Source: Clostridia bacterium
GTDB lineage: Bacteria > Bacillota > Clostridia > Peptostreptococcales > Acidaminobacteraceae
Assembly: GCA_016937975.1 (NCBI GenBank)
Contig: JAFGVN010000099.1
Span: 1-64,000 of the forward strand
Direction: 5' to 3'
DNA length: 64,000 nucleotides
Shown here: one piece after another, positions 29,589-57,922 of the stretch
How positions within the stretch are numbered: the first letter of the stretch is position 1
Layout: every line of letters starts with the position of its first letter
Notes under the pieces: model-generated
What the model was told of the DNA's origin: nothing
Databases searched by the model: none
What the model saw: only the letters and a program-made list of their open reading frames with translations
Position numbers and translations under genes: made by a program

Positions 29589-29619
29589 TAAAAGAAAAGC
29601 ATAACCTTAGGTTATGCCT
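29589..29619 (-). terminator. Terminator of the 14-gene purine operon
   Basis: Eight-pair stem GCATAACC / GGTTATGC with 3-base loop, followed on the minus strand by TTTTCTTTTATTTTT. Confidence 0.9.
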
Positions 29620-31900
29620 TAATTGATTTCCAAACATCTTCGGCACGTATAGGCAAGACGTTGATTCGCTTACCAATAGCATTCTTAAGTGCATTTGACA
29701 AAGCCGCTGGTGGAGTATCTATACCAATTTCTCCAACAGATTTTGCACCAAATGGTCCAGAAGGTTCATAAGATTCTACAAAGGATACATCAAGGTGCTT
29801 GATCTCCATTCTTGTTGGGACTTTGTATCTCATAAAGGAATTGTTAAAATTGTGACCTTGTTCGGAAATATTGACTTCTTCGTACATGGTCATGCCTATA
29901 CCTTGAACAATTGCACCTTCCACTTGTATTTTAGCCAAATTAGGATTGATGGTAGTACCACAATCAACAACCGCTACATAATTTAATATATCAACTTCTC
30001 CAGTACGGGTATCGACTTCGATTTCTACACCACCAACCATATATGGTGGAGGCGATTTTGTGCCTACATAAGATCCTGAAGCGACCAATTGCTCTTGATT
30101 TTCTGAGTAGAATAATTTTGTTGAAAAATCTTTCAAGGTAATTGATTGATCTTCGCAAGTTAATACACCTTCTACATAGTTCACATGATGGCTGTTAAAA
30201 TGTTTTCTACCTGCTTCAATGATATTTTCTTTCATCTTTTCTGCTGCAATACGAACAGAATGCCCTGAAACATAGGTTGTACTTGAAGCATAAGCTCCAG
30301 TATCAAAAGGTGTTAAATCTGTATCTGAAGAATAAACAATAATTTTCTCCACAGGGACTTCCAATGCTTCAGCAGCAATCTGAGCCAAGATTGTATCTGA
30401 TCCTGTACCAATATCTGTAGCGCCTACCATTAAGTTAAAGAAACCATCATCGTTTAGTTTAATGATTGCTGAACCCATGTCAATGTATGGGATTCCTGAC
30501 CCTTGCATTGCTAAGGCATAACCGACGCTTCTTATTTTATTTGGTGCAACTTGTTTCCTTGGATAAATGTCATAGTAGTTGAGCTTCTCCAAACAAAGAT
30601 CCAAACATTCCTGTAATTTACAGGATTCAATGGTCATCGCTGTACCTTCTTGTCCTTCACCCATGATTTCGAAGATTTCAGATGTTTCCCCTTCTTTCAT
30701 CATATTCATTTCGCGAAGTTTAACACTATCAATTTCAAGGAGATCGGCCAGTTCATCTATGGCACTTTCCAAAGCAAAGTTTCCTTGAATAGCACCATAA
30801 CCACGATAAGCTCCTGCTGGTGTTAAATTGGTATAGACAACATCACCTCTAAAACCTACTGCTTTTACCTTGTTATAAAGGGGTAATGTTTTAGAACCTG
30901 CAACCATTAAAACGGTTAGGGCATGTTCACCATATGCACCGGTATTAGATAAAATATCCATATCTATGACTTGAATGGTACCATCTTTCATAGCGCCTAC
31001 TTTTATATCCAACCGCATTTGATGCCTTGTATAACTGCCTTCAAATACCTCTTTACGAGAAAAAATACATTTAGCAGCTTTGCCTGTTTTCATAGTTACC
31101 ATGGCAACGAAAAACTCCCCATGAATAGCTTGCTTGCCACCATAACCACCACCAATACGAGGTTTTATGACTCGGACTTTTGATAACGGAAGATTTAAGG
31201 TCTTTCCAACTATTCTTCTAACATGGAAAGGTGTTTGTGTTGAAGTGATAATGTTTAAACGATCTTGTTGATCATAATAACTCACTGAAGTATGTGGTTC
31301 TGTCATGGCATGGGCTTGAGCCTGAGTATAGTACCTACCTTCATAAACAACATCACATTGTTTTAAAGTCTCCTTAACAGAACCAATCTCCATTTCATAA
31401 CTGGCAGCAATATTTTTTTCAGGATAATGCCCTATTTCAAACATTGATTTTGTGCCATCACCAGAATGAATCTTAATATCATGATCTTTTGCAATTTCAA
31501 AATCTAAAATGGCATCAAGTACTTTGTATTCAACTTTAATTTTATTAATGGCTTCATCAACTTGATGCTCAAAAACCCCTGCGACTACAGCTACAGGTTC
31601 ACCAATATATCGACAAATCTTATTTAAAATACGATGATCATAGGGTGAAGGCTCTGGAAAGCCTTGTCCTGCTCTTGAAAAATTCACATCAGATACATTC
31701 GCATAGGTAAATACACAGGCAATGCCCTCTGAGGCTTCAGCCTTTGAAGTATCTATGGAAAGAATTTCTGCATGCGCATGAGGTGATCTTAACACTTTAA
31801 CAATAAGAGCGTCTCTAGGTGCTAAGTCATCTGAATAAGCAGGTTTTCCCATTACCAAACCAATACCATCTACTTTTCTTATTTTCTCATTAACGCCCAT
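29612..31900 (-). CDS. Molybdenum hydroxylase, Mo-binding large subunit (second set)
   Basis: 762 residues from ATG 31900 (TGATG overlap with the FeS gene; GGAGGTGG upstream; the codon before is GTG). Holds the molybdopterin cofactor and hydroxylates purines or related N-heterocycles. Seen: N-terminal xanthine-dehydrogenase/aldehyde-oxidase domain (1-130), IGGGYGGKQ (Mo pocket), GAYRGYGAIQGNFALES (substrate loop), GSGIPYIDMGSA, TDIGTGSDT, and the catalytic Glu in GAKSVGEIGIDTPP near the C-terminus. The FeS and FAD subunits are separate genes immediately upstream. Last gene of the operon. The sequence differs clearly from the other large subunit (42688-44763), so the two enzymes likely act on different substrates, e.g. 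xanthine versus another purine. Confidence 0.93.
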   Translation of the reverse strand: MGVNEKIRKVDGIGLVMGKPAYSDDLAPRDALIVKVLRSPHAHAEILSIDTSKAEASEGIACVFTYANVSDVNFSRAGQGFPEPSPYDHRILNKICRYIGEPVAVVAGVFEHQVDEAINKIKVEYKVLDAILDFEIAKDHDIKIHSGDGTKSMFEIGHYPEKNIAASYEMEIGSVKETLKQCDVVYEGRYYTQAQAHAMTEPHTSVSYYDQQDRLNIITSTQTPFHVRRIVGKTLNLPLSKVRVIKPRIGGGYGGKQAIHGEFFVAMVTMKTGKAAKCIFSRKEVFEGSYTRHQMRLDIKVGAMKDGTIQVIDMDILSNTGAYGEHALTVLMVAGSKTLPLYNKVKAVGFRGDVVYTNLTPAGAYRGYGAIQGNFALESAIDELADLLEIDSVKLREMNMMKEGETSEIFEIMGEGQEGTAMTIESCKLQECLDLCLEKLNYYDIYPRKQVAPNKIRSVGYALAMQGSGIPYIDMGSAIIKLNDDGFFNLMVGATDIGTGSDTILAQIAAEALEVPVEKIIVYSSDTDLTPFDTGAYASSTTYVSGHSVRIAAEKMKENIIEAGRKHFNSHHVNYVEGVLTCEDQSITLKDFSTKLFYSENQEQLVASGSYVGTKSPPPYMVGGVEIEVDTRTGEVDILNYVAVVDCGTTINPNLAKIQVEGAIVQGIGMTMYEEVNISEQGHNFNNSFMRYKVPTRMEIKHLDVSFVESYEPSGPFGAKSVGEIGIDTPPAALSNALKNAIGKRINVLPIRAEDVWKSIKA

Positions 31901-32349
31901 CACTCCACCTCCATCATCTTCTTAATGGCACGATGTTGTCCCTCATAGCCAGAACATCTACACATATTACCAGCAAGATAATGTTTTATTTCTTCCATGG
32001 TAGGATTCTTTAGTTCCAATTTTAAAGCGTGAATTGCCATCACATGACCAGGTGAGCAAAAGCCACATTGATCTACACCTTCTGCTGTGATAAATTCAGC
32101 TATATGTCTTGCTTCTTCTGGGATACCTTCAACGGTCAACACTTCTTTTTGATCACATCTGCTGGTTAAATAAGAACATGATGGCACCAATTGTCCATCA
32201 ACAATTACAGAACACACGCCACAACTCGTTGTGTCGCATCCCTTTTTTACGGATTGAAAACCAAGTTTTCTTAAACTTTCAATTAAGTATTCATCTGGAC
32301 GTGGATAATAGTCATAATGATTATGATTTACGATTAAATTAATTTTCAT
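31900..32349 (-). CDS. Molybdenum hydroxylase, [2Fe-2S] small subunit (second set)
   Basis: 149 residues from ATG 32349, chosen for GGGAGG upstream; the frame runs to 32487 but overlaps the FAD gene without a ribosome site. Two [2Fe-2S] clusters: plant-type CDTTSCGVC...C and helical QCGFCSPGHVM / CRCSGYEG. It shuttles electrons from the Mo site to FAD. Overlaps its neighbours on both sides (11 bases and 1 base). Confidence 0.94.
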   Translation of the reverse strand: MKINLIVNHNHYDYYPRPDEYLIESLRKLGFQSVKKGCDTTSCGVCSVIVDGQLVPSCSYLTSRCDQKEVLTVEGIPEEARHIAEFITAEGVDQCGFCSPGHVMAIHALKLELKNPTMEEIKHYLAGNMCRCSGYEGQHRAIKKMMEVE

Positions 32350-33076
32350 GATGACCTCCCATTGTATATATAAGATCTTCAAGTCTAGCTTCACATAATG
32401 CTCTTCGATATTCTTTTGAACCTTTAAAATCACTTCCAAATTCAACTTCTGATAAAATTTCCTTAGGAGATTTTGAAAAATCAACATGCTCCAAATAGAT
32501 AGGTCTCATAGGTCTTGCACCTATAGCCAAGGTGTTATTTGAAACTGACAAATTAATTAAGGAAAAGTCTGTATATACTTTTTTATAAAAAGCTGATGCA
32601 GAAAACTGAGGGGCTCTAAAGGAAATTTCTAAGAGAATATCTTTTTCTTTTAAGCCTTCTTCGTTGTATTTTCGCATAGATATTTTACCAGAGTTAAAAA
32701 AGGTTAATGTAGCATCCAGTGCGACCAACATGGTATTAATGTCACTGAATGGATATCTGCCGTAAACACTGCCGCCTATAGTTGCAAGGTTTCTCACCCC
32801 AACACCGCTAATTTGTTTAACAGATTGATTAAGTCCTTTTGGTAAGCTCAAATTTGTTTCAATATCTCTTAAAGAAGTCATTGATCCGATTGAGATGACA
32901 TCACCGATCAGAATCTCTGAACTTAAGAGATGAGAACAATCTATTAAGGTTGTAAAATGTTTCTTTTGAAGTCTTAAAAATAACCCCCCGCCTAGGATTG
33001 TTGCTGATTTTTCGCTTATTAATATTTCATAGGCTTGTTCTAGAGAGGATGGTTTGACAATTCGATCAGCTTTCAT
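32339..33076 (-). CDS. Molybdenum hydroxylase, FAD-binding medium subunit (second set)
   Basis: 245 residues, shorter than the usual 280-300. FAD-binding motifs: ATILGGGLFL (about 31-40) and VRNLATIGGSVYGRYPFSDI (about 92-112). The C-terminal CO-dehydrogenase flavoprotein domain is reduced but recognisable. Start supported by AAGGAGGG. The first GGG motif reads GGGLF rather than GGTDL, a variant that may affect flavin contact. Overlaps both neighbours by 11 bases. Confidence 0.9.
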   Translation of the reverse strand: MKADRIVKPSSLEQAYEILISEKSATILGGGLFLRLQKKHFTTLIDCSHLLSSEILIGDVISIGSMTSLRDIETNLSLPKGLNQSVKQISGVGVRNLATIGGSVYGRYPFSDINTMLVALDATLTFFNSGKISMRKYNEEGLKEKDILLEISFRAPQFSASAFYKKVYTDFSLINLSVSNNTLAIGARPMRPIYLEHVDFSKSPKEILSEVEFGSDFKGSKEYRRALCEARLEDLIYTMGGHHEN

Positions 33077-34268
33077 TTCTTCCCTCCTTATAAAATGCTT
33101 GAATTTCTTCTTTTGTATATATTTCAGGTTTTTTCAAATCAGAAATAGCATCTGTATCTTTTAACCCGTTTCCAGTTATGATCAAACAAACGCTTTGATC
33201 TTCAGGGATTTCATTTTGTATGGACAGATATCCTGCAACAGCAGCAGCACCTGCCGGTTCGGAAAAAACACCTGTCTCAGAAGCCAGTAATACAATACTG
33301 TTTAATATCGCTTCATCAGAGACATCAATCATTCTACCACCAACTCTTGATAAATATGTACAGGCTTTAATGACATCTCTTGGATTTCCTACGGATATAC
33401 TATCTGCTACTGTACTTACAATTTCATCCATTGGTTCAAATGGAGGTCCTTGATCAAAAACTTTTTTTAACGTATTGGATCCCTTCGCTTGAACGCCGAT
33501 GATGATTGGAAGGCGATCAATGAGTTTTAACTTATGGAATTCTTCAAAGCCTTTACAGATGCCACTGATAATAGTGCCATCTCCTACAGCAACAAAACAG
33601 TAATCTGGTACAATATAATCATTTTGAACAATAATTTCAAAAGCACCAGTTTTTTTACCCTCCAATAAATAAGGATTAATAGCAGAATGTCTTGTATACC
33701 AATTGTTCTTTAAACCAATTGCCAAGGATAAATCAAAAACTTCATCATAGGATGCGTCTATAAGTTTAACATCTGCACCTGCTGCCATAAGTTGTGCCAG
33801 TTTACCTTTTGGTATTTTTTTAGGTACAAATATGCTGGTCTTCATATGTGTATGTGCATTGAGTAATGCAAGTGAAGAAGCTGCATTACCAGTTGAGGCA
33901 CAAAAAATATGTTCATTCTTTTCTTCAATAGCACGATTAATGGCAATGATGCTGGCCCGGTCTTTATAAGAACCTGAGAAACTCATACCATCATTTTTGA
34001 TCAACAGTTGTTTTCTATTCAGTTTATTTTCAAATTTCAATAAGGGTGTTCCCCCTACTAATGCATCCACGACCGTATGGGATGTAGTAGGTAAAAGTTT
34101 TTCAAATTGAAAAATAGAGCCATGCTTTGAAAAGTTTCTTTCTAGATGTATTTGATCATAATCATAAACAACTTCCAAAGTACCATGCAGGTTGTCGCAA
34201 GTATCACAAACATAACGGTGAGGTTCAGGTTGATATTCTTTTTGACAAGTTATACATCGTAAATACAT
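33066..34268 (-). CDS. Fold-type II PLP enzyme, threonine synthase-like
   Basis: 400 residues from ATG 34268, which overlaps the preceding stop (TAATG) and has AAAGGAG 7 bases up. An N-terminal zinc-ribbon-like part (CITCQ ... CDTC, residues 4-25) precedes the PLP domain: the lysine of GSYKDRAS (about 114), the phosphate loop region STGNAASSLA, and a C-terminal GNGLKDTD segment. This resembles threonine synthases (ThrC type 2) and diaminopropionate or threonine lyases of the same fold. In a purine-breakdown operon threonine synthesis is unlikely; lysis or exchange of a beta-substituted amino acid (such as 2,3-diaminopropionate or serine-like intermediates) is more likely. Substrate unresolved. 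Confidence 0.82.
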   Translation of the reverse strand: MYLRCITCQKEYQPEPHRYVCDTCDNLHGTLEVVYDYDQIHLERNFSKHGSIFQFEKLLPTTSHTVVDALVGGTPLLKFENKLNRKQLLIKNDGMSFSGSYKDRASIIAINRAIEEKNEHIFCASTGNAASSLALLNAHTHMKTSIFVPKKIPKGKLAQLMAAGADVKLIDASYDEVFDLSLAIGLKNNWYTRHSAINPYLLEGKKTGAFEIIVQNDYIVPDYCFVAVGDGTIISGICKGFEEFHKLKLIDRLPIIIGVQAKGSNTLKKVFDQGPPFEPMDEIVSTVADSISVGNPRDVIKACTYLSRVGGRMIDVSDEAILNSIVLLASETGVFSEPAGAAAVAGYLSIQNEIPEDQSVCLIITGNGLKDTDAISDLKKPEIYTKEEIQAFYKEGRNES

Positions 34269-35341
34269 TACAATACTCCTTTTATAGCTTGAGTAGGACA
34301 AGAAGATTCACATAAACCACATCGAATACATCGATCTTGATCATTAAGGATGTGACCATCTTTCATCATTGCAATTTCAGGACAGATATTGACGCACTTT
34401 GAGCATAATATACATTGTTCATGATCAATAACTGGGAAACCTCCTAATCCTTGTGGCGTCAAAGACAAGGATGTTTTTCTTAAGGCTTCAATACTTTCTA
34501 TGTCATATTGATCCATAATTCTTGGTAAATCCTTTATAATTTGGTCATAAAGTTGTCTACCCTTTATTAAAGCTGAAGAAAGCATTTGAACGAGATCTGC
34601 TCCAGCAAGAATAAATTCCAAAACATCTTCTGCAGAAGAAACACCACCACAGGCAATGATTGGTAAGTCAGGATAATGTGCTCTAATAGACATCACCCGT
34701 TGAAGGGCTACAGGTTTTATTGCAGGACCCGATATCCAGGATTGGCCTTCGTTCACACCAATGGTTACACTTTTTTTATTAAGATCAATCACTGCACCAG
34801 GTCCAAGGCTGTTCATTGCAACGATACCTTTGGCACCATTTTCTATAGCGATAGCTATAAAACTTAAATAATCTTGAATGTGTGGGCTTAATTTAACAAA
34901 AACAGGAACATCTGTAAGTGATGTTATTGTTGAAACAAGTTCCTTTAAGCCATCTTTGCCATAATGGGTACTGACTTCAAAAAAATCAGCGTATTCTTTT
35001 AGCTGGGGTATAGATATTTTAAAATCATCAGAAGTATAACCTGCACAGACAATGAGTGGCTTTTTAAGTTCTTTTTTTAAATTTGGTAAAATATCATCAA
35101 CCCATTTTTTTAAAGGGAGTTCACTCCATAATTCAGTATTATGTATGATTTTATTTTTTTCAACGATACAGGGTTTATGGACCTCTGCCCCTTCTATACG
35201 AATTGTTTTTGTAACAATGCCACCAACTTGATTTTCATTGAAGAATTTTAAACTATGTAAACTCCCTACAGTCGGTCCAGATGCTGGTAATAAGGGATTT
35301 TTAAATTCTTTATTTAACAAGGTAACCTTTAATCGATTCAT
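34268..35341 (-). CDS. PreA-like dihydroorotate/dihydropyrimidine dehydrogenase with two [4Fe-4S] clusters
   Basis: 357 residues from ATG 35341, selected by ATGA overlap with the preceding gene and GGAG 6 bases up; an ATG four codons earlier has no such site. A TIM-barrel FMN domain (about 5-290): NPLLPASGP, VKLSPH, the FMN-phosphate region CGGVSSAEDVLEFILAGADLVQ. The C-terminus is a double ferredoxin domain (CILCSKCVNICP, CIRCGLCESSCP). Same organisation as PreA, which reduces or oxidises pyrimidine rings with partner PreT. No PreT-like gene is in the operon, so electrons may come from ferredoxin. The usual catalytic Cys position (GSSPHG-type) is not evident; NSLG instead. Reduction of a ring-opening intermediate is my inference. 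Confidence 0.88.
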   Translation of the reverse strand: MNRLKVTLLNKEFKNPLLPASGPTVGSLHSLKFFNENQVGGIVTKTIRIEGAEVHKPCIVEKNKIIHNTELWSELPLKKWVDDILPNLKKELKKPLIVCAGYTSDDFKISIPQLKEYADFFEVSTHYGKDGLKELVSTITSLTDVPVFVKLSPHIQDYLSFIAIAIENGAKGIVAMNSLGPGAVIDLNKKSVTIGVNEGQSWISGPAIKPVALQRVMSIRAHYPDLPIIACGGVSSAEDVLEFILAGADLVQMLSSALIKGRQLYDQIIKDLPRIMDQYDIESIEALRKTSLSLTPQGLGGFPVIDHEQCILCSKCVNICPEIAMMKDGHILNDQDRCIRCGLCESSCPTQAIKGVL

Positions 35342-36585
35342 AGTCTGCTCCATAATTCTTTTACTTGGTTTAAATCCACTTTTGAACCACTCATGTACTC
35401 ATATTGATCAATATATTTTTCGCCATTAATAAACAAAGCAAAGGGTTTCAGTTGATCAAATACCCCGTAAAATAAATGATATAAAATATTTTCTTGATTC
35501 ATCGGGGTTGGATATTGATAGTCAATTAAAATAAAATCTGCTGAATATCCTTGTTGAATTGCACCAATGAGTTGACCACTTCTTCTGTTAAAGTAATCAT
35601 ACCCATTTATAATGGTCTTTCTTATCCATTCTAAGGTTAAATTTGACGGATGTTGAGTTTGCATTTTCCCAAGATAATATAAATATTGATATTCTTTTGC
35701 AATATTGGCTCCTAATCCATCCGTGCCAACCAAAATAGGAATGTCATACTTAGTAACTAATTTATTATTGTATAATCCAACTGCATTATTTAAATTGGAA
35801 GTTGGATTTATGGCTATATAGCATTTACTTTCTTTTATAATTTTTGCTTCGGCATCATTAATGTGAACACAATGTGCCAGGATGCTGTCCTCATTTAATA
35901 AATTGAAATCTTTCAACCGATTAACGATGTCTTTATGATAACGTTGCTGTGTAATGGCTACATCTTCTATGCTTTCTGCTACATGAATGTGTATTGGAGA
36001 TCCTTTTAAATTTTCTTCGATTTCATTTAAAGTTTCATCACTTAAAGACATACTGGCATGGAGACCAAAATGACCACCTCGATCTATTGCATAATGATTT
36101 TCGTTGATACAATCTTGTATATCAAATCGATCACTTGTTTCAAAGCACAATAAATGCTTGATATTTAAATCATGTAGGGCGATATCAATGGTCAGTAAGC
36201 TATGATCAATTGTACCTGATGCATGATGATCTATTAATGCTGTTACACCATGTTTTAAACAAGCTTCACCATAGGTATATGCACTTGCTTTTATATCTTC
36301 TAAATTTAAGGTTTTATCAAACTTCCACCAAATTTGATCTAAAATATCCTGAAAAGATTCTGGATGTGAAATAAGCGGTGCACCTCGAAATAAAGCAGAA
36401 TAAATATGGGTATGCCCATTGAGCAGTCCTGGTATAATTAGTTTACCCTTTGCATCATACACTTCGAAATGGCCATTAAAATCTTCCATTTTTCCTACTG
36501 CAAGAATCTGATGATCAAAAATAATATAACCATTATCAATGAAGTTTACATAATCATATATTTTTGCATTAATAATTGCTTTCAT
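35338..36585 (-). CDS. ssnA: SsnA-like amidohydrolase
   Basis: 415 residues from ATG 36585 (CAGGAG upstream; the frame reaches 36630 inside the preceding gene). A metal-dependent (beta/alpha)8 hydrolase of the chlorohydrolase/guanine deaminase group. Metal ligands: HTH in NGHTHIYSALFRG (about 56-58), His in IHVAES, His in LAHCVH and Asp in GTDGLGAN. The sequence around ALFRGAPL, LIDHHASGTIDHS and FIKESK-like part matches E. coli SsnA. SsnA genes sit in purine-breakdown clusters, and a role in hydrolysing a purine-derived amide or amidine is inferred. Overlaps the upstream gene by 17 bases. Confidence 0.86.
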   Translation of the reverse strand: MKAIINAKIYDYVNFIDNGYIIFDHQILAVGKMEDFNGHFEVYDAKGKLIIPGLLNGHTHIYSALFRGAPLISHPESFQDILDQIWWKFDKTLNLEDIKASAYTYGEACLKHGVTALIDHHASGTIDHSLLTIDIALHDLNIKHLLCFETSDRFDIQDCINENHYAIDRGGHFGLHASMSLSDETLNEIEENLKGSPIHIHVAESIEDVAITQQRYHKDIVNRLKDFNLLNEDSILAHCVHINDAEAKIIKESKCYIAINPTSNLNNAVGLYNNKLVTKYDIPILVGTDGLGANIAKEYQYLYYLGKMQTQHPSNLTLEWIRKTIINGYDYFNRRSGQLIGAIQQGYSADFILIDYQYPTPMNQENILYHLFYGVFDQLKPFALFINGEKYIDQYEYMSGSKVDLNQVKELWSRL

Positions 36586-37855
36586 AATTTCTCCTGATAT
36601 ACTGGCCTTTACTTTCAAAGATTTCATCATGAGCCATAATTATATTGCCTCTTAAAATGGTCATCTCAACTTTAGAATGTAAGGTTTCATGATATAATTC
36701 ATAATCCATATTTCTACGAATTTCAGAACATACTGTGATTGCGTTATGATTCACAATCGCATAATCTGCGTCATTGCCGACTTTAATGCTACCTTTATTA
36801 TTTAAGTTGAAAATGCTTGCAGGTTCAGACGTTATTTTAGGGATAATGTCTAAACCAAACAGCTCATACATCAATGGAAAAGTTAGACCTAAAGAACCAA
36901 TCCCCTTTGGAATTTTAATGATGTCTAATGCATTCATTTTTTCTTTATAAGTAAATGGACAGTGATCCGTTCCAATGGTGTTTAATAGATTAAAGTGTTT
37001 TTTCATAAGCAAAATGGAATCATCGCCTCTTAATGGTGGTGCCAAAAGGTATAGTCTACCATCTTCCTTCAGAAACAAATCTTTATTCAAATAGAAATAC
37101 TGAGGACAACTTTCTAAATAAATACGGGGATTTAAGCGACCTTCATTTAAGTAGTTCAATGTATGTCCAGAAGAAATGTGAACAATGTAAAGCTTGCCAT
37201 TTTGTTGGTTAGCAAGTTTAATAAGTGTTTTAATAGCCATTAATTCAGCTTCTTCTGAACGAGAGGTTTCATATTCTGAAATGGATTTGGGCTGAGTAAT
37301 CAACTGATCTTCCTCTCCATGGGTCATCACGAGTATGGGTTGGCCTAATAATTTTTCTATGACGGCATAATCACATCTTCGATTTGAATCTGAATAGGTG
37401 GTAAATACTTTCACAGAGGTTATCCCTTTATCCAGCACTTTGTTTTTAAGAATTTCTACATCATCGTTATAGTGTCCTAAAGTGCAATGAAAGCTATAAT
37501 CCACCAATGCACAAGAAGCTTCGTTCATTCTGCGATCGAACACTTCATCAAGTTCCGTATTACTCCAAATCGGATCAAGAAAATCTAGTACAGTAGTAAC
37601 ACCTCCTAATGCAGCTAATTCAGTGCCACTTTGAAAATCATCTGCAGAAAAGGACTTACCAATATTCAAGTGAAGATGTACGTGAGGATCAATAAAACCA
37701 GGATATACAGTTAAACCAGTTGCATCAATAATTTTTGACGCAGGAAAGACAGCTTTATCCACTAAAGCTGTTTTTCCGTTTTTCATATAAATATTGGTTT
37801 CAATGATTTGATGATCAATGTAACATTTACCATTTAGAATAGCACTATCATACAT
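36569..37855 (-). CDS. hyuA: Dihydropyrimidinase/hydantoinase-like amidohydrolase
   Basis: 428 residues from ATG 37855 (GGAG 7 bases up; one base after the PLP gene). Two-metal (beta/alpha)8 hydrolase. Ligands: HVH in DPHVHLHL (about 58-60), the carbamylated Lys in SVKVFTTYS (about 145), His in VHISSGH, and Asp in GTDHCPFTYKEK. It opens cyclic imides or ureides such as dihydropyrimidines and hydantoins. Length and motifs match the E. coli HyuA found in the same type of gene cluster. With SsnA it probably gives the ring-opening and deamination steps. Confidence 0.9.
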   Translation of the reverse strand: MYDSAILNGKCYIDHQIIETNIYMKNGKTALVDKAVFPASKIIDATGLTVYPGFIDPHVHLHLNIGKSFSADDFQSGTELAALGGVTTVLDFLDPIWSNTELDEVFDRRMNEASCALVDYSFHCTLGHYNDDVEILKNKVLDKGITSVKVFTTYSDSNRRCDYAVIEKLLGQPILVMTHGEEDQLITQPKSISEYETSRSEEAELMAIKTLIKLANQQNGKLYIVHISSGHTLNYLNEGRLNPRIYLESCPQYFYLNKDLFLKEDGRLYLLAPPLRGDDSILLMKKHFNLLNTIGTDHCPFTYKEKMNALDIIKIPKGIGSLGLTFPLMYELFGLDIIPKITSEPASIFNLNNKGSIKVGNDADYAIVNHNAITVCSEIRRNMDYELYHETLHSKVEMTILRGNIIMAHDEIFESKGQYIRRNYESNY

Positions 37856-37856
37856 T

Positions 37857-39254
37857 TTAAATCTCCAACACAGCATTTATTTCAGCTTTATGTTTTTCAC
37901 GATATGCTACTATCTTTTTATTGTATGTTTCAACTAAATTGGCTTGTTCATTCCAAAAGTCTTGAGATTTCATAGCATCTAAAGCTTCAACTGTTTTACC
38001 TTGTTGTTCAACCCATGTATAATATTTTAGATTATGCCATCTTAATTTATTATCCCGGTCACCTTCATACATTAAGGAATGATCTTGATAATAGACAATT
38101 CTTTGATAAATACTCTGACAATCTTCAGGTGTTAAAGTTGGAAAAGCATTCATAACAGAATGATAACGATCGATAGAATCTGTTGCAACGGTTAAGACGT
38201 TCTCACCTTCTTGAAGATTATAGTATTTTGCTGTTTTAATTGCGCCAATGATGTTCGCACAACCAGATATACCTAGTTTGTCAGAAATAAATTCTACTGT
38301 ATCTTCATCCATATGTTGCTTAAGATATGCCTTACCTTCTTCTGAAGTAAACAATTTAAGTAACCATTTGGAATCCATATCATCAATTAAAACCACGCCA
38401 TCTGTATTCATGACATTATGAATCCATGTAACATGCTTATCGCCAATACCTTGGATATCATGACCACCATAGCCATTCAAAGATAAGGTTGGACATTGTA
38501 CAGGTTCACCTGCTATGATTTTTGCATGAGGAAAAACTTTCTTAATGCAGTCACCACAAGCAATAGTACCTGCTGAACCTACAGTCAAATGAACTGCAGC
38601 GATTTCCATATTACCGATTTTTTCATCTTTCACCAATTCAAGCATGGTATTGCCTGTTACATATTCATGGAATCTATAGTTTGCAAAGGAATCAAACTGG
38701 TTTAAAATACGAATATGCTCTGGATCTTCTTTTCTTAACTCATGGGTTTTATCATAAATTTCTTTTACATTCGATTCACATCCAGGCGTTGCAATAACGT
38801 CTGAACCATATTCATGAATCAAGTCGAATCTTTCTTGTGACATTTCTTCTGGTAAGATTGCCAAAGAGTTATAATTCATTCTTGAACTCACAAAAGCTCC
38901 ACCAACACCATAGTTACCTGTTGATGGCCAAACCAAACGGTGTGTTAACGGGTTAACTTCATCATCTACAGTTTTTTCTGTTAAAACAGAGTAGGTTGGG
39001 CCTACTTTATGACTACCTGATGGAAAGTTCTTAGCAAACATGACAACAATATTGGCTTTTGTATGGGTAAAAGATGTTGGTAGTACAAAATAGTTATAAC
39101 TGTCATCACCATTTCTCCAAGTGATATTGTAAAGATTTAGTGGATGTAACGGATCTTTCGTTTTCATTTCCAATGCTTTTTTTCTGACCTCTGGATCAAT
39201 TTTCCATGGATGCAACATTTCTTCATAAGTTGGTCCAATCACTGGTATTTTCAT
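37857..39254 (-). CDS. Fold-type II PLP enzyme, cysteine-synthase-like, unknown substrate
   Basis: 465 residues. The PLP lysine lies in PSGSHKVGPTYSV, and a phosphate-binding loop in WPSTGNYGVGGAF. Unlike YgeX (diaminopropionate ammonia-lyase, about 400 residues with FKxLGGxYA), it has a longer C-terminal part (about 400-465) rich in Trp, Tyr and Lys, and an N-terminal segment that begins IPVIGPTYEEMLHPWKIDP. I do not identify it with a named enzyme; similar PLP proteins occur next to YgeW-type genes in anaerobes. AGGAGGG precedes the ATG. Position between the carbamoyltransferase and the hydantoinase suggests it acts on the amino-acid fragment left after ring opening. Confidence 0.84.
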   Translation of the reverse strand: MKIPVIGPTYEEMLHPWKIDPEVRKKALEMKTKDPLHPLNLYNITWRNGDDSYNYFVLPTSFTHTKANIVVMFAKNFPSGSHKVGPTYSVLTEKTVDDEVNPLTHRLVWPSTGNYGVGGAFVSSRMNYNSLAILPEEMSQERFDLIHEYGSDVIATPGCESNVKEIYDKTHELRKEDPEHIRILNQFDSFANYRFHEYVTGNTMLELVKDEKIGNMEIAAVHLTVGSAGTIACGDCIKKVFPHAKIIAGEPVQCPTLSLNGYGGHDIQGIGDKHVTWIHNVMNTDGVVLIDDMDSKWLLKLFTSEEGKAYLKQHMDEDTVEFISDKLGISGCANIIGAIKTAKYYNLQEGENVLTVATDSIDRYHSVMNAFPTLTPEDCQSIYQRIVYYQDHSLMYEGDRDNKLRWHNLKYYTWVEQQGKTVEALDAMKSQDFWNEQANLVETYNKKIVAYREKHKAEINAVLEI

Positions 39255-39262
39255 AAGCCCTC

Positions 39263-40225
39263 CTATAATGTTAATGCCATAACAGCTTTCGCTGTATGCA
39301 ATCTATTTTCAGCTTCTTGATAAACAACAGATTGTGGTCCATCAATAACGGAATCTTCCACTTCATTTCCACGGTCAGCAGGTAATGCATGCATGTATTT
39401 TACATTTGGACTTGCAAGTTTCATTCTTTCTTCCGTACATTTCCAATCTTTAAAGTCAGCTAAATTAACATTAGGATCTTTGCCACTCCACGAACCCCAG
39501 TTTTTCGGTATAACAATATCTGCATCTTTAAAAGCTTCATCCATATCATGAAGAATTCTAAAAGAACCACCATATTTTTTTGCGTTTTCCTTTGCTTCAT
39601 CAATGACCCAATCAGGCATCTCAAATCCTTTTGGATAGGCTAATGTAACATCCATACCATAACGTGGGAATAATAATGCTTGTGTTAAAGGTACGCTAAT
39701 CGGTTTCTTATGACTTGTTGCATAAGCCCATATAATTGACACTTTAAGATTTTTTGTTTCAGGACAGAGTTCTTTAATGGTTAGTAAGTCTGCTAAACCT
39801 TGCATTGGGTGAAATAAATCACATTGTAAATTGATAATTGGTCTTGAAGCATGTTTTGCCATTTCATTTAAATACTTGTTACCAACTTCCCAGAAACAGT
39901 TTCTACAGGCAATACCATGACCAAAACTGGATAAGATGACTGCAGTATCCTTTGCCACTTCACCATGGTTGATTTGCATTGTTGAAGTATCAAGGAAGTT
40001 TGCATGACCACCAAGTTGTGCAATCCCCATTTCCATTGAATTTCTTGTTCTTGTACTTTCTTCAAAAAACATTAAAGCAATTGTTTTATATGGCAAATAA
40101 GGTGTCGGAACATCCATATAATGTTTTCTTTTTAGCTCGGATGATGTTTCTAATAACATATCAATTTCAAAATTTGTCCAATCTCTCAGTGTAATAAAAT
40201 GTTTTCCTTTTAGTTTACCGTACAT
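39263..40225 (-). CDS. ygeW: YgeW-like knotted carbamoyltransferase
   Basis: 320 residues (E. coli YgeW is about 396). Transfers a carbamoyl group; run backwards with a carbamate-kinase it yields ATP. The carbamoyl-phosphate site FFEESTRTRNSMEMG (about 54-68) and the FHPMQGLADLLT motif (about 147-158) are intact. The second domain carries AHALPADRGNEV in place of the classical HCLP/HALPR, as in the YgeW group of unknown substrate. It starts in TAATG overlap with the YgeY gene and has a GGGGGAG ribosome site. The carbamate kinase (YqeA-type) is not in the window. Confidence 0.88.
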   Translation of the reverse strand: MYGKLKGKHFITLRDWTNFEIDMLLETSSELKRKHYMDVPTPYLPYKTIALMFFEESTRTRNSMEMGIAQLGGHANFLDTSTMQINHGEVAKDTAVILSSFGHGIACRNCFWEVGNKYLNEMAKHASRPIINLQCDLFHPMQGLADLLTIKELCPETKNLKVSIIWAYATSHKKPISVPLTQALLFPRYGMDVTLAYPKGFEMPDWVIDEAKENAKKYGGSFRILHDMDEAFKDADIVIPKNWGSWSGKDPNVNLADFKDWKCTEERMKLASPNVKYMHALPADRGNEVEDSVIDGPQSVVYQEAENRLHTAKAVMALTL

Positions 40226-41427
40226 TATAACTCCCCCTTATCTACTAGCGGTACCATTGCATAAAACATTGCAGCGTCCACTAAATCCGACTTCAAAATT
40301 TTCTCGTTAGGTGCATGTGCTTCTTCTTCTCTACCAGGTCCAAAACCGATGCATGGGACATGATACATTCCCATTATTGCAACACCATTTGTTGAGAACG
40401 TCCATTTATCTAAAAGTGGTTTCTTCTCAAAAATGTATTCAAAGCCTCTTATGAAATCTTCACAGATTTTATGTTCCTTCGGAATAACCCATGTTGGAAA
40501 ATAACAAGGTACATCAGGTTCATAACCTGTGTATGAAGGTCTGTTATAGCGATACATCGTCACCTCAGCTTTTGAAGCTTTTACAGAAGGTAATTCTTGG
40601 ATTTCTTTGATCGAGGTTTCTTCATTTTCTCCTACGGTTAATCTTCTATCGATGGATATAGCGCAGCTATCTGCTACAGCACAACGTGAAGGTGACGTAT
40701 AAAAGATTTCAGACACAGCAAGGGTTCCTTTTCCTAGGAAATCATCATTTTTTAATGTCGTATTCAATTGTTCCAATTCTTTTAGGATGTTGGCCATTTT
40801 ATAAATCGCATTATCTCCTCTTTCAGGTGCTGAACCATGAGAAGAGACACCTTTGACATCGACTCTAATTTCCATTCGTCCTCTTTGTCCACGATAAATG
40901 TTAAGTGCTGTGGGCTCAGTTGAAATCACAAAATCAGGCTCGATAACTTTTTCAGATAAAATGTATTGCCAACACAAGCCATCGCAATCTTCTTCTTGTA
41001 CGGTTCCAACAACCCAAATGGTATGTTCATTTAAGAGATCTAAATCTTTCATGATTTTTGCACCATAAACAGCCGATGCAAAACCACCTTCTTGATCACT
41101 TGCGCCGCGTCCATAAATATACAAATCATCTTCTTTACCTTGAAATGGATCAAATGTCCAATTACTAATTTCACCAACATCGACTGTATCTATGTGTCCA
41201 TCAAAGGCAATCACTTTTTTTCCATTGCCCATACGACCTAGAATATTGCCCATGCCGTCAATTTTTATTTCATCAAATTCCAATTGTTCCATTTCCCTTT
41301 TAATGCGTTGAACAACTTTTTCTTCCATGCAACTCGTAGATGGTATAGAAATCATATCTCTAAGAAATTGGTGTAATGCTTTGGCGTAAAATTGTCCTCG
41401 CTCATTAATTTTCTCTTTATAATTCAT
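40225..41427 (-). CDS. ygeY: YgeY-like M20-family hydrolase
   Basis: 400 residues. A two-zinc amidase/peptidase: metal ligands His and Asp in [10 protein letters not shown] (about 75-82), Asp in GASDQEGG, Glu pair in QEEDCDG, His near the C-terminus in [10 protein letters not shown]. Catalytic Glu of the EED pair is present. YgeY is essential in anaerobic urate breakdown in published gut-bacterial clusters; a ureido or carbamoyl amino-acid substrate is inferred. Overlaps the FAD subunit gene by 11 bases. Confidence 0.88.
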
Positions 41428-42235
41428 TGATAACCCCCTCTAAATAAGTCTTAATCATATTGATTGCAACTGTTTCCCGGTAATCTTTTGTGGATCTTTT
41501 ATCATTAACGCCTGATAAAATTGCTTTGAATCCTTGGATTAAATCAGGTATTGAGTGATCCTTAATAAATTGTTTCTCAAGCTGTACAGAACGAATGACC
41601 ATTGGATTTACAGCACCAATTGTTATCGCTATTTCATCCAGTTTATGGTGTACAATAAAGACTGAAACTTTTGAAAGAATACTGGCTTTTCGTTGACCAA
41701 TTTTTTTATAATAATAAGCGTTATAATTCTTTTTAGGTATATGAATATAAGTTAACAATTCATTGTCTTTGCGAACCGTTTTATATTTTCCTAAAATAAA
41801 TGCACCAAGCGGTATTGTTCTTTCTCCTTCAACACTTTGCAAAGTAACTTCTGCATCTAAAGCCAGTAATATTGGAATAGAATCTGCAACACTAGCTGCA
41901 TTGACAATATTTCCTCCAACGGTTGCAATATTTCTTATAGCGGGATGACTCATTTGTGCATATGGCACTCGAATGTATTCAGGTAAATGACTTTCAGCCA
42001 TTTCAGTTTGCGTCACCAATGCACCTATAATATAATGGGTATCTGTTTCTTCAATGTTCTTAAGGGAATCAATGCCATTAATGAAAACAACAGGCTGCGT
42101 AAATTTTCTTTCAGCACCTTGCCACTGACGTTTACGAATCATTAAATCCGTACCACCTGCAAAGATATGACAACGTTTTTGATGAATAAGTTGCAATGCT
42201 TCTTCTACAGTAGTCGGGCGATAACTGTTAATCAT
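41417..42235 (-). CDS. Molybdenum hydroxylase, FAD-binding medium subunit (first set)
   Basis: 272 residues. FAD motifs: [13 protein letters not shown] (about 21-33) and [17 protein letters not shown] (about 95-111); the C-terminal domain has [13 protein letters not shown] (about 250-262). Passes electrons from the iron-sulfur subunit to NAD+ or another acceptor. Start by overlap of 8 bases with the FeS gene (GGAGGG upstream). Confidence 0.94.
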
Positions 42236-42698
42236 AACGATATCCCTCCTTTACTAACATTGCCACTGCTTCAAAGATCATTTGATAACCTGTGCAACGA
42301 CAGAGATTTCCGGACAAACCTTCTTTTACCTGTTGTAAAGTTGGTGCATCATATTTCTTAAAGAGTTCATAGACAGCCATTACCATACCAGGAGTGCAAT
42401 AACCACATTGAACAGCACCAGAGGACATAAAGGCATTTTCAATGGATTTATAGGCTTCAGTTTGCGCAAATGATTCTATGGTAACGACTGATTTGCCAAC
42501 AGCATTTGCCATGGGTACCATACAGGAATTCACGAGTAAATCATCCATGAATACTAAACAAGCACCACACTCGCCTTCTGCACAACCTTCCTTTGTACCA
42601 GTCAAATCAAAATCTTCTCTTATGACATCAAGTAATCTTCTTGTATAAGTGCTTTCAATTGAAACGGCATTGCCATTTAAAATAAAATCAATTTTCAT
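42228..42698 (-). CDS. Molybdenum hydroxylase, [2Fe-2S] small subunit (first set)
   Basis: 156 residues. Two [2Fe-2S] clusters with CAEGECGACLVF...C and VQCGYCTPGMV / LCRCTGYQ, all eight cysteines present. Overlaps the large subunit gene by 11 bases and the FAD gene by 8. Confidence 0.95.
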   Translation of the reverse strand: MKIDFILNGNAVSIESTYTRRLLDVIREDFDLTGTKEGCAEGECGACLVFMDDLLVNSCMVPMANAVGKSVVTIESFAQTEAYKSIENAFMSSGAVQCGYCTPGMVMAVYELFKKYDAPTLQQVKEGLSGNLCRCTGYQMIFEAVAMLVKEGYRYD

Positions 42699-44763
42699 GA
42701 ATTGCCTCCAATATTTTTTCTGGTGTTACTGGAATACTATGAATTTCTTTCTTAATAGCATCTTCTATGGCAGATGCTATCGCAGGTGCTACACCAACCA
42801 GAGTCAATTCACCAACTGATTTTGCACCAAATGGTCCATCAACAAACCTATTCTCTATCCATTTTGCATGAATATTTGGAATATCTTCTGTAGTAGGAAT
42901 GACATAATTACTAAAGGAATGATGTTGTATTTGGCCACCTTCTGAGGTCATACGTTCGAGCATGCCATAGCCTAAACCCTGAATAACACCTCCGTGGATC
43001 TGACCAAGTAGTAGCTTTTCATCAATGGGAATACCAACATCATATACACCATAAATATCCGTACAAGTGACTTCATAAGTAACAGGATCTACGTGAACTC
43101 TTGCCATAATGGCTGACCATGAATAGGCCATATAGGCATTGCCATGGAGTTTTTCCTGATTCCAAACGACATAGTCAGGTTGTTTAAAGTGCTCAACAAT
43201 TAAAACTTCCTCTTCATCCATTCGTGCTTTCATCTTCTCTGCTGCTTTGGCTAATAGTCCACCTACAACCATCGTTGTTCGAGAAGCTACTGTTGGTCCG
43301 GAATCTGGTACTTTAAAAGTATCTGGTATCGCATATAAAACACGTTCAATATCGATATCCAAAACAGATGCAACGATTTTGGACAACGCAGTGATGGCAC
43401 CTTGTCCCATTTCAACATTTGAAATGAGAATATAAATGTTTTCTTTTACTTTTTTTAAATGCACTTCCGCTTTAATATGTACCGCTTCGCCATCACCAGT
43501 AAAACCACCACCGTGAGGAATAAAAGATACACCATAACCAATATGCTTTTCTTCTTTTCTATGATGCATCTGGGATAACGCTATAAGAGCATCTGCCATT
43601 TCTTCTAAGTAAATATCTTCATTGAAAATACCACCTGTTGACGTGGTTTCGCCTTTATGAACAAAATAATCTTTTCTAAATTCAATCGGATCAACATTCA
43701 GATAATTGGCCAATTGATTCATATGAAGTTCCAAAGCATACATACTTTGTGGCGCGCCGAATCCTCTGAAAGCACCTGTAAATACATTGTTAGTTTTAAA
43801 GGTCTTACCGTTTACACGACTATTTTCAAAGCCATAACAGCCATTCATTGTAAATATGGCTCTTTGCAATACAACGTCTGACAAACCGAGATACGGACCA
43901 GCGTCTAAATGAATCTCATAATCCATGCCAACAATTTTTTTATCTTTTATGTAAGTTTTGATATAACTCTTCGAAGGATGACGTTTCGTTGTGAAAGCCA
44001 TGTCTTCTCTACGATCAAACACTAAACGTACAGGTTTATTTAATTTCATGGTGGCTACAGCAACTTGTAAAGCAAGTAAAGATGGATATTCCTCTTTTCC
44101 TCCGAAGGCTCCACCTGTGGGTGCTTGAATTACTCTAACCTCATGAGCTTCTTTATTGAGCGCATATTTCAAAGCATTGAGAACATAGTAGGGACATTGC
44201 ATAGAACCGTAAACGGTTACAACACCATCTTCCATGGCACCTACAACACCTTGTTTTTCCATATACAATTGTTCTTGATAGCCCGTTTCATAAGTCCGTT
44301 CAAAGCGTTCATCATATTCAAGATTTTCAAAGGAGCCCAATGAAAAGGTATGCTCTGTCAAAATATCACCCTTAGATTGTGAATCTTCCATCGTTAAAGT
44401 CGGTTCAAAAATTTCATAATTGACTTTGATTTTATTGATGAAGGAAATAATTTGATTTTTATCTTTACCGACAATTAAACTAATAGGTTCACCTATGTAG
44501 TTCACAGTATCTTCAGCAAAAATAGGCATATCCTTAAGAATCATAGCCACTTCATTTTTATGACATACGTCAGATGCATCTACTATGGTTATCCCCTTTT
44601 CAGGTGGAGGATATTCAATGGATATAATTTTCCCTTTAGGAATGGTTGATCTTAAGGTACGAGCATAGTGAAGGTCATCAAACCGCATATCTTCAATATA
44701 CCTCAGACTACCATTAATTTTTTCCTTAACATCTAACCTTTTAACGTGATCCGTTATTTTCAT
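42688..44763 (-). CDS. Molybdenum hydroxylase, Mo-binding large subunit (first set)
   Basis: 691 residues, about 70 shorter than the other large subunit, the shortening lying in the middle and C-terminal linkers. Seen: N-terminal hammerhead domain (KITDHVKRLDVKEKINGSLRYIED), GGAFGGKEEYPS (Mo pocket), GAFRGFGAPQSMYALE, EMGQGAITALSKIVA and the catalytic Glu in GAKSVGELTLVG. It is like XdhD-group purine hydroxylases. Coupled to the MocA-like gene by ATGA overlap, with GGGGG as ribosome site. Confidence 0.93.
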   Translation of the reverse strand: MKITDHVKRLDVKEKINGSLRYIEDMRFDDLHYARTLRSTIPKGKIISIEYPPPEKGITIVDASDVCHKNEVAMILKDMPIFAEDTVNYIGEPISLIVGKDKNQIISFINKIKVNYEIFEPTLTMEDSQSKGDILTEHTFSLGSFENLEYDERFERTYETGYQEQLYMEKQGVVGAMEDGVVTVYGSMQCPYYVLNALKYALNKEAHEVRVIQAPTGGAFGGKEEYPSLLALQVAVATMKLNKPVRLVFDRREDMAFTTKRHPSKSYIKTYIKDKKIVGMDYEIHLDAGPYLGLSDVVLQRAIFTMNGCYGFENSRVNGKTFKTNNVFTGAFRGFGAPQSMYALELHMNQLANYLNVDPIEFRKDYFVHKGETTSTGGIFNEDIYLEEMADALIALSQMHHRKEEKHIGYGVSFIPHGGGFTGDGEAVHIKAEVHLKKVKENIYILISNVEMGQGAITALSKIVASVLDIDIERVLYAIPDTFKVPDSGPTVASRTTMVVGGLLAKAAEKMKARMDEEEVLIVEHFKQPDYVVWNQEKLHGNAYMAYSWSAIMARVHVDPVTYEVTCTDIYGVYDVGIPIDEKLLLGQIHGGVIQGLGYGMLERMTSEGGQIQHHSFSNYVIPTTEDIPNIHAKWIENRFVDGPFGAKSVGELTLVGVAPAIASAIEDAIKKEIHSIPVTPEKILEAIHEN

Positions 44764-45323
44764 TTTAACCCCCTTATCATTTCATTTAATTCATCTTTGG
44801 TATCAATGTCCTTTAAAATATATGGATCCTCTACATTTGCATAAGTTTTATGAACAAGACTCAACACATCTCTTAAAGAGTCTCTATTTGAACAAATAAT
44901 TGGTTCTCTCATTTTTTCATCAAGAAGAATAGGATGTCCTGATTTATAATGATAGCTAGGAATAATGACATCACCTTCAAAAGTGAGCAACGTCTCATAA
45001 GTACTACTTTTAACAATTGGTTGATCTCCTGGCATCAAAAAAAAACGATCCCCAGTAATATGCTTTAAACCTTGCTTTATCGAACTAAACATACCTGTTT
45101 CATAATCAGGGTTGTAAACACAAGTCACACGTTCATATGGAAGTAATAATGCTTCAATACGACGATGTTCATGACCTGTAACCACAACAATAGAGTCCAC
45201 ATAAGGCATCATGGTTTTAATACATGATTCAAGAACCGTTGTTTCATTTATCTTTTGTATTAATTTGTATTCAGGAAATCGTGTAGACTTTCCAGCTGCC
45301 AAAATAATGCCATTTATCAACAT
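44760..45323 (-). CDS. mocA: MocA-type molybdenum cofactor cytidylyltransferase
   Basis: 187 residues. Adds CMP to Mo-molybdopterin, making the dinucleotide cofactor of the hydroxylases encoded next to it. Motif: GIILAAGKSTRFPEYKLI (about 5-22) is the nucleotide loop; MPGDQPIV (about 98-105) holds the metal-binding Asp. Related MobA makes the guanine form; linkage to hydroxylase genes favours the cytosine form. First gene of the operon. About 190 bases of leader lie before it, in which no clear promoter or riboswitch is recognised. Confidence 0.88.
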   Translation of the reverse strand: MLINGIILAAGKSTRFPEYKLIQKINETTVLESCIKTMMPYVDSIVVVTGHEHRRIEALLLPYERVTCVYNPDYETGMFSSIKQGLKHITGDRFFLMPGDQPIVKSSTYETLLTFEGDVIIPSYHYKSGHPILLDEKMREPIICSNRDSLRDVLSLVHKTYANVEDPYILKDIDTKDELNEMIRGLK

Positions 45324-45460
45324 AAACTCTCCCCATATTTCAGTATATTTAGAATTTTCAGAAAATAAAAGTTGAATACCTATATTCTTAATTTTATTTG
45401 TAAGTTTCTAACAAAACTATACCCTATCCCAGTGAAACAAAACCAATATTATCCATTTTA
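45324..45460. promoter_or_regulatory. Leader of the purine operon
   Basis: AT-rich upstream region of mocA. A minus-strand TATAGT (complement at about 45417-45422) could be a -10, with no good -35 at the right distance. No known riboswitch or inverted repeat for a purine regulator was recognised. Confidence 0.3.
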
Positions 45461-45499
45461 TAATAAAAATCAACGCCTCATATTGAAGCGTTGATTTCC
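45461..45499 (-). terminator. Terminator after the tandem-GNAT gene
   Basis: Ten-pair stem AAATCAACGC / GCGTTGATTT with an 11-base inner part and TTTTTATT on the minus strand. Confidence 0.85.
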
Positions 45500-45517
45500 A
45501 TTAAATCCAATACTCTT

Positions 45518-46441: not shown

Positions 46442-46524
46442 ACAAGTCTCCTCTTAAATATGATATCATGAAAATAGATTGATAGGCTGTAGTGAAAATG
46501 TTTTTAATGAAGTGGAGGTCCATC

Positions 46525-57894: not shown

Positions 57895-57922
57895 CATATC
57901 ACCCCAAAATATATTGCTAATC

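Follow-up and report, generated by a model that had tools for sequence, protein, structure and literature searches.

A run of 14 genes on the minus strand of a 64,000-nucleotide stretch from a Clostridia bacterium (GenBank assembly GCA_016937975.1, contig JAFGVN010000099.1; this whole stretch is called the window) probably encodes a largely self-contained anaerobic reductive purine pathway, in which two pyridoxal phosphate (PLP) enzymes, PLP1 and PLP2, are present in place of YgeX. An anaerobic reductive urate pathway was published in 2025 (PMC12507026) and, judged from the sequences, the gene composition fits it step by step, except for the two PLP enzymes at the last step. Gene content, gene order, conservation, phylogeny, residues and co-occurrence were observed directly; every reaction in the host is inferred from them. 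G numbers denote genomes, L numbers fetched stretches or loci, and C numbers contigs of the own genome (G000; 4.03 Mb, 98.66% complete), where the window is contig C32, 1-64000. The genes of the operon, all on the minus strand, are the following (flavin adenine dinucleotide is abbreviated as FAD, xanthine dehydrogenase as XDH):

44760..45323, minus: mocA-like molybdenum cofactor cytidylyltransferase, the first gene (NTP_transf_3; TIGR03310 124.5 bits, cut-off 186.45)
42688..44763, minus: large Mo subunit of mop1 (mop1L), XDH type by residues and tree
42228..42698, minus: 2Fe-2S subunit of mop1 (fes1; pucE 162.6 bits, cut-off 254.3)
41417..42235, minus: FAD subunit of mop1 (fad1; XdhB_XDHase 142.2 bits, cut-off 310)
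40225..41427, minus: YgeY hydrolase, unambiguous (TIGR03526 630.8 bits, cut-off 321.5)
39263..40225, minus: short YgeW-like carbamoyltransferase (CTase), 320 aa, by tree and motif
37857..39254, minus: PLP1, fold-type-II PLP enzyme, 465 aa, cysteine-synthase-like with a C-terminal helical extension
36569..37876, minus: HyuA-like hydantoinase (TIGR02033 224.7 bits, cut-off 393.25)
35338..36585, minus: SsnA-like aminohydrolase (PRK07203 324.3 bits, cut-off 444; TIGR03314 291 bits, cut-off 455.5), start corrected from 36630
34268..35353, minus: UacX-like flavoprotein, DHO_dh and two 4Fe-4S, no FAD/NAD(P)H domain matched
33066..34268, minus: PLP2, threonine-synthase-like PLP enzyme, start corrected from 34301
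32339..33076, minus: FAD subunit of mop2 (fad2; best glyceraldDH_beta 66.8, XdhB_XDHase 40.7 and Se_sel_red_FAD 34.6 bits, all far below cut-off)
31900..32349, minus: 2Fe-2S subunit of mop2 (fes2), start corrected from 32487
29612..31903, minus: large Mo subunit of mop2 (mop2L), XdhD-like by tree and GEG insert, putative urate-to-yanthine reductase

In the proposed pathway, the XDH mop1 would oxidise xanthine to urate and mop2, an XdhD-type enzyme that has 2Fe-2S and FAD subunits of its own, would reduce urate to 2,8-dioxopurine (yanthine); together they would isomerise xanthine to yanthine with no net redox change. UacX would reduce the ring, SsnA would open it to ureidomethyl-hydantoin, and the product of HyuA would be 2,3-diureidopropionate. 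The short YgeW-like carbamoyltransferase would release one ureido group in the form of carbamoyl phosphate, to be used by a carbamate kinase whose gene lies elsewhere, and YgeY, which removes a ureido group in the published pathway (PMC12507026), would take off the other, leaving 2,3-diaminopropionate (DAP). PLP1 and PLP2 would jointly replace YgeX and convert DAP to pyruvate and ammonia.

PLP1 was searched for in 99 genomes, the own one included, and 14 regions were fetched. A close copy, defined as 67% identity or more, is found in 11/99 genomes, again with the own genome counted. The conserved 13-gene order mop1L-fes1-fad1-ygeY-CTase-PLP1-hyuA-ssnA-uacX-PLP2-fad2-fes2-mop2L is present in 9/10 of the other close-PLP1 relatives (G001, G013, G030, G011, G018, G038, G019, G031 and G008); in L022 the contig ends within mop1L, and in L025 fad1 and ygeY are separated by extra genes. 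The tenth relative, G004, has pieces of the cassette on two contigs (L020, L146), where hyuA and ssnA were not seen, and its best SsnA elsewhere is weak. A named collection contains 271 stretches with a gene for a PLP1 relative, of which the best 80 were retained and scored for pathway markers at thresholds of our own. These 80 belong to Thermotogota (31), Chloroflexota (24), Bacillota (18) and other or unassigned groups (7); at least one marker is found near PLP1 in 53 of them and all eight in 12. Four of the 12 all-marker loci are beyond the G genomes (L031, L035, L041, L043) and have the same order, with extra genes between fad1 and ygeY in L035 and L043. In all, nine relatives and four more named contigs have the 13-gene order, as far as compared with that of the initial annotation of this DNA. 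Two culture-collection strains carry the operon, Dethiosulfatibacter aminovorans DSM 17477 (L031) and Fusibacter tunisiensis DSM 24436 (L042); in the former, another fad2-fes2-mop2L triplet lies immediately upstream of the cassette (L031 2-3562). In our literature searches we found no description of the PLP1/PLP2 pair, nor of purine use by Fusibacter or Dethiosulfatibacter.

The distribution of the PLP pair is complementary to that of YgeX. YgeX (TIGR03528) has no match over cut-off in the own genome, the best being 67.5 of 532 bits on other contigs, so that its lack in the expected form, pointed out for the gene run by the initial annotation, holds genome-wide. YgeY is found over its curated cut-off in 25/99 genomes, of which 11 have a close PLP1 without YgeX, 13 have YgeX without a close PLP1, one (G002) has neither and none has both (YgeX called at E 1e-60 or better; Fisher p 3e-6, relatedness not corrected). 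With a stricter YgeX limit of 480 bits, chosen once the scores had been seen, the corresponding counts are 11/6/1/0 of 18 (p 0.0004). The cassette of G012 is without both PLP genes, and its genome encodes YgeX on a contig of 3.6 kb that is similar in GC to the cassette contig (0.444 and 0.456). From their position, the exclusion of YgeX and their joint absence in G012 we infer that PLP1 and PLP2 act on DAP. PLP2 was sought in 20 genomes, which are not a random sample, and was counted as present at 485 bits or more, or as a split match of 383+214 (Marinitoga). It is present in 14/15 PLP1 genomes and in 1/5 without a close PLP1 (G002); at that level it was not found in G107, G012, G021, G070 and G091. 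The next class of matches lies at <=292 bits, and such a second homologue (109-292 bits) is present in 10/15 of the genomes with PLP2. A search for YgeX in 13 locus genomes was negative in 12 at E 1e-30.

Several observations weigh against the proposed pathway and the joint role of the two enzymes. No pathway marker lies within the flank in 27 of the best 80 of 271 PLP1 loci at our thresholds, and HyuA, SsnA and the carbamoyltransferase all score under their curated family cut-offs. The G002 cassette keeps PLP2 with only a 43% relative of PLP1 and no YgeX, G107 (Desulfobacterales) has PLP1 without PLP2 (138.9 bits) or a clear SsnA, and distant PLP1 relatives (43-44%) occur alongside YgeX in G075 and G098. 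G109 (Chloroflexota) has PLP1, PLP2 and a YgeX-like gene of 515 bits (cut-off 532), around which no purine gene was recognised. Moreover, PLP2 scores 167.1 bits against the threonine synthase model TIGR00260, exactly the printed cut-off, and in 5/15 PLP2 genomes, the own one included, the search with PLP2 gives no second ThrC-like homologue (E. coli-type ThrC not searched).

Based on G002, G107 and L084, in which PLP1 adjoins an SsnA-like gene with no PLP2 in the stretch (genome not searched), it could be argued that a single PLP enzyme cleaves DAP and that the other has a side job, in cysteine, serine or threonine metabolism or in clearing a reactive aminoacrylate intermediate. We regard this as rather unlikely: PLP1 and PLP2 are found in one gene run in the Bacillota cassettes and in Chloroflexota, both are present, though unlinked, in the six tested Thermotogota genomes, the G012 cassette has neither, and their paralogues form a side-by-side pair in L026. 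Also, in G108 (L090), PLP1 is found by SsnA alone, yet PLP2 lies ~22 kb away on the same contig. The L026 pair is itself part of an apparent amino-acid operon (L026 5102-12575), where a sigma-54 activator is followed by PLP2'-PLP1' (41% and 45%), a sodium:alanine symporter and an M20 hydrolase.

Looking at the two proteins separately, Lys83 of PLP1 is invariant in 42/42 rows and Lys113 of PLP2 is kept in 24/24. PLP1 scores 129.9 bits against the cysteine synthase model TIGR01139, below the cut-off of 350.95. Its AlphaFold model has a mean predicted local distance difference test score (pLDDT) of 90.6, and its nearest solved folds are of the cysteine-synthase, beta-cyanoalanine-synthase and cystathionine-beta-synthase types (Z up to 34.3); the PLP2 model has a mean pLDDT of 89.4 and its nearest solved fold is threonine synthase (Z 47.7, 2c2b). 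With such structures as closest relatives, a TIGR00260 score equal to the cut-off and five genomes without a second homologue, PLP2 might simply be the threonine synthase of the organism and PLP1 a cysteine synthase, both merely sitting in the operon. This is very improbable, because the Arg of ThrC which we take to bind the substrate phosphate (R160 in T. thermophilus) is replaced by Leu or Thr in 24/24 PLP2 sequences and is Arg in 4/4 aligned ThrC, the second homologue exists in 10/15 PLP2 genomes, and a distinct cysteine-synthase-like gene is present on C70 of the own genome.

The idea that PLP1 or PLP2 is a divergent YgeX was rejected, since TIGR03528 matches neither of them when the genome is searched at E 0.001; the NCBIfam comparison for PLP2 covered the best 25 of 35 matches. 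YgeX is not among the best 50 fold rows for either protein, which is no evidence of different folds. YgeX acts on both D- and L-DAP; presumably its Asp120 is used for the D form, and the roles of Asp120 and Asp189, both checked as present in E. coli YgeX, are our assumption. The position of Asp120 is Thr in both PLP1 and PLP2, and on this basis we guess at a division of labour in which one PLP enzyme would handle or invert one DAP isomer and the other would eliminate ammonia from the other isomer.

The pair could also use DAP by beta-replacement (e.g. sulfide to cysteine) or by another route, with a pathway end other than pyruvate. The solved structures nearest to PLP1 are mostly enzymes of this kind (cysteine synthase, beta-cyanoalanine synthase, cystathionine beta-synthase, O-ureidoserine synthase), and Dethiosulfatibacter and Fusibacter are thiosulfate/sulfur reducers, which also counts in its favour; nevertheless the reaction does not follow from a kinship of folds, pyruvate is the end product of the E. 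coli pathway as published (PMC12507026), and we consider this outcome improbable. Two further roles for PLP1 were rejected. It is not an OrtB thiolase, as no such model is among its 17 NCBIfam matches, and it is not a sulfur donor to the Mo enzymes, as the G012 cassette has both Mo enzymes and neither PLP gene, and nine Chloroflexota PLP1 stretches are without a Mo-enzyme subunit by our models.

Concerning the upper pathway, which in the preferred reading leads from xanthine to the opened ring, the four XDH residues of mop1L (equivalents of Q767, E802, R880 and E1261, the bovine numbers being assumed here) are kept in 8/8 rows. In the Mo-subunit tree, mop1L is found with the Thermotogota XDH (support 99/98) and mop2L is sister to E. 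coli XdhD (100/99), where XdhA and XdhD are long branches. A GEG insert around XdhD Glu606, a residue suggested to perhaps orient urate (PMC12507026), is common to XdhD and mop2L (8/8 rows) and missing from XdhA and mop1L. It is also missing from the XdhD of the YgeX-type clusters L120, L121 and L125, which branch elsewhere, so the insert does not mark all urate reductases. The Glu802 position does not discriminate, since it is Gln in mop2L, XdhD and XdhA alike. The nearest solved sequence relative of mop2 is 4-hydroxybenzoyl-CoA reductase, and the Mo hydroxylases might act on another heterocycle (nicotinate or a hydroxybenzoyl-CoA-like substrate) in an operon that is no purine pathway. Given the sister position of mop2 to XdhD and its Glu606 insert, the step-by-step match of the remaining enzymes to the urate pathway, and the Athalassotoga locus L070, where an XDH stands beside PLP1 with adenine deaminase and 8-oxoguanine deaminase, we find this highly unlikely.

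The UacX-like protein was assigned by its gene position and its domains (DHO_dh and 4Fe-4S motifs), which are those described for C. difficile UacX, and it has 37% identity to the gene at the UacX position of the YgeX-type cluster L120. In C. difficile, UacX is a PreA/PydA-like protein in place of YgfK (PMC12507026); YgfK (TIGR03315) has no match over cut-off in the own genome, partial ones only. The cassette seems, from these assignments, to pair the XdhD type of E. coli with the UacX type of C. difficile. The top-ranking models are those of SsnA for the SsnA-like protein and that of D-hydantoinase for the HyuA-like protein, in both cases below curated cut-offs. In the SsnA tree, the Bacillota cassettes group with Thermotogota (99/99), and the branch of E. 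coli SsnA is long. The mocA-like gene is also 5'-terminal in L016, L019 and L025 (3/9 cassettes) and is also found in L119 and L123. Xanthine and urate use by C. difficile depends on YqeB (PMC11448449). A search of the own genome, which is 98.66% complete, for this maturation protein of selenium-dependent molybdenum hydroxylases gave no match at E 0.001 among 8 scored candidates (selD not searched).

Concerning the lower pathway, the carbamoyltransferase scores 179.8 bits against the YgeW model TIGR03316 (cut-off 500), and ornithine models score higher (259.2). Its assignment to the ordinary, non-knotted ornithine type on these scores was overturned by the tree, where it joins YgeW (100/99) apart from three outgroup rows, all of them long branches and two of them carbamoyltransferases of the own genome, and by a WAY..SxxKPxSVP-type motif which it has in common with YgeW. 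We take this WAY...KPxSVP motif to be the YgeW knot loop. The short form is also found between YgeY and carbamate kinase in the YgeX-type cluster L120, and it adjoins carbamate kinase in Chloroflexota L104. A stretch of G004 (L020 8765-14358) contains two short YgeW-like carbamoyltransferases and a carbamate kinase, and its YgeY is nearer to the YgeX-type clade despite the presence of PLP1. The initial annotation rightly described the run as having no carbamate kinase or transporter, but the genome has both elsewhere: two carbamate kinases over cut-off on other contigs, each near another carbamoyltransferase, and two Xan_ur permeases, also on other contigs, around which no purine genes were recognised by eye (no family scan).

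The layout of the operon is largely as first described. The 14 minus-strand open reading frames (ORFs) at 29612-45323 are confirmed, and when the longest ORFs are taken they overlap at 12/13 junctions, the sole gap being 8 nt between the carbamoyltransferase and PLP1 genes. Starts with Shine-Dalgarno-like motifs, better than the longest ORF, are found for ssnA (36585), PLP2 (34268) and the second 2Fe-2S subunit (32349). The family labels given earlier hold at family level by profile matches, several genes being below curated cut-offs, and the YgeW-like label needs the correction that this relative of YgeW is of a short form, 320 aa. The single terminator proposed at the end of the run corresponds to an 11-pair hairpin, and a second hairpin precedes the operon:

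29596..29620, minus: terminator-like hairpin ending the run, 11 pairs and a T-run (29620-29596), across the end of the last gene
45425..45500, minus: strong hairpin and T-rich tail, separating the operon from the gene before it (-24.2 kcal/mol, z -5.7)

The remaining listed minus-strand hairpins within the run have only 5-7 pairs. The operon claim rests on the overlaps and the conserved gene order, since the terminator-like hairpins of the region are no more numerous than in shuffles (7 found vs 9.3 expected). A 15-pair hairpin followed by a T-run is found on the plus strand in the 5' part of hyuA (37743-37777), and the minus-strand transcript would fold a matching stem. Adjoining the operon, and outside it, is an acetamidase/formamidase-like gene (46492-47409, plus; FmdA 77.8 bits, cut-off 500; possible amide use). 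The window also contains a 2039-aa ORF of unassigned content (51778-57897, minus), and no Rfam family was found in the window at gathering thresholds.

Parts of the cassette are distributed across other phyla. YgeY is over cut-off in 14/14 genomes, namely ten named-locus genomes (five of them Thermotogota) and G000, G002, G004 and G012. In five Thermotogota genomes YgeY, the carbamoyltransferase, HyuA, an SsnA-like protein and UacX are in a row, with one extra ORF before UacX in Thermosipho and fragmented copies in Kosmotogaceae and Marinitoga; a sixth, G111, has YgeY-CTase-HyuA-UacX-PLP2 with no SsnA between. In all six of the Thermotogota genomes tested, YgeY, the carbamoyltransferase, HyuA and UacX are together, PLP2 is present and YgeX was not found; in Thermosipho and Marinitoga, PLP2 is in one gene run with fad2-fes2-mop2L. 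Athalassotoga L070 (5958-12723) contains, in one run, adenine deaminase, an XDH large subunit, PLP1 and 8-oxoguanine deaminase, which suggests a wider purine-base scavenging unit. The Desulfobacterales locus L097 (8229-13820) contains a PALP protein (522 aa) followed in the same run by PLP1-YgeY-YgeW, with no clear SsnA in the genome.

In the YgeY tree, the root of which is arbitrary, the cassettes of Chloroflexota, Thermotogota and Bacillota fall into separate clades. A single clade unites E. coli with the three sampled YgeX-type clusters and includes the PLP-type YgeY of G004; it stands among several PLP-type clades. The YgeX genome G012 is found within a PLP-type clade, among the Bacillota cassettes. 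These groupings are compatible with the PLP pair as the older ending but do not demonstrate it. A tentative proposal, to which we give somewhat less than even weight, is that PLP1 and PLP2 form a new two-enzyme DAP cleavage and the older ending of a pathway which is ancient in environmental and thermophilic anaerobes (Thermotogota, Chloroflexota, Bacillota), and that the YgeX ending of E. coli and gut bacteria would be a later replacement.

Known systems share most components with the operon. The E. coli cluster (ygeWXY-hyuA-yqeA / ygfK-ssnA-ygfM-xdhD; PMC12507026, region read from NC_000913.3) also has an XdhD-like Mo enzyme with a separate FAD subunit, SsnA-, HyuA- and YgeW-like enzymes, YgeY and MocA. 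In contrast to it, the operon has a UacX-like protein for YgfK, PLP1 and PLP2 for YgeX and a short carbamoyltransferase; carbamate kinase is outside the run, XDH is within the same operon, the 2Fe-2S subunit is unfused to the XdhD-like subunit, and the own genome is without a yqeB match. C. difficile, which shows selenium-dependent growth on xanthine and urate (PMC11448449), has a urate cluster that likewise contains a UacX-type flavoprotein without an FAD domain, YgeY, HyuA and SsnA (PMC12507026). By the descriptions in the papers, not by sequences, it differs in keeping YgeX, in a UacY hydrolase for the carbamoyltransferase, in an XdhD without an FAD subunit and in needing YqeB, none of which is seen here. 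Chloroflexota SsnA clusters with an F420-dependent reductase have already been noted (PMC12507026); they contain SsnA, HyuA, YgeY, the short carbamoyltransferase and PLP1 and PLP2 (not all at every locus), but have the F420-type reductase for UacX, and carbamate kinase is part of the cluster. Purinolytic clostridia also break down purines anaerobically by the xanthinase pathway (Rabinowitz), with different enzymes by the description in PMC12507026.

The idea of a divergent anaerobic purine or urate cluster, put forward in the initial annotation, is thus supported by family matches, trees, diagnostic residues and the conservation of the whole cassette. Of the variant composition claimed there, the PreA-like protein in place of YgfK is the already published UacX (PMC12507026), while the absence of YgeX is the informative difference. 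A figure legend in PMC12507026 marks YgeX only as PF00291, and this Pfam family also matches PLP1 and PLP2; surveys of YgeX based on PF00291 are therefore blind to the swap. Since PF00291 cannot see it and the SsnA of the window falls short of the TIGR03314 cut-off, clusters of this type may escape marker-based searches. PMC12990295 describes the last steps as stereochemically unresolved, and organisms which trade the D/L-indifferent YgeX for two enzymes would offer a way to test it. The same 2025 commentary does not decide between an ancient origin of the reductive urate pathway and a recent adaptation to the gut, leaning to the latter (PMC12990295); the Thermotogota and Chloroflexota clusters argue for a wider, perhaps older, distribution of the pathway.

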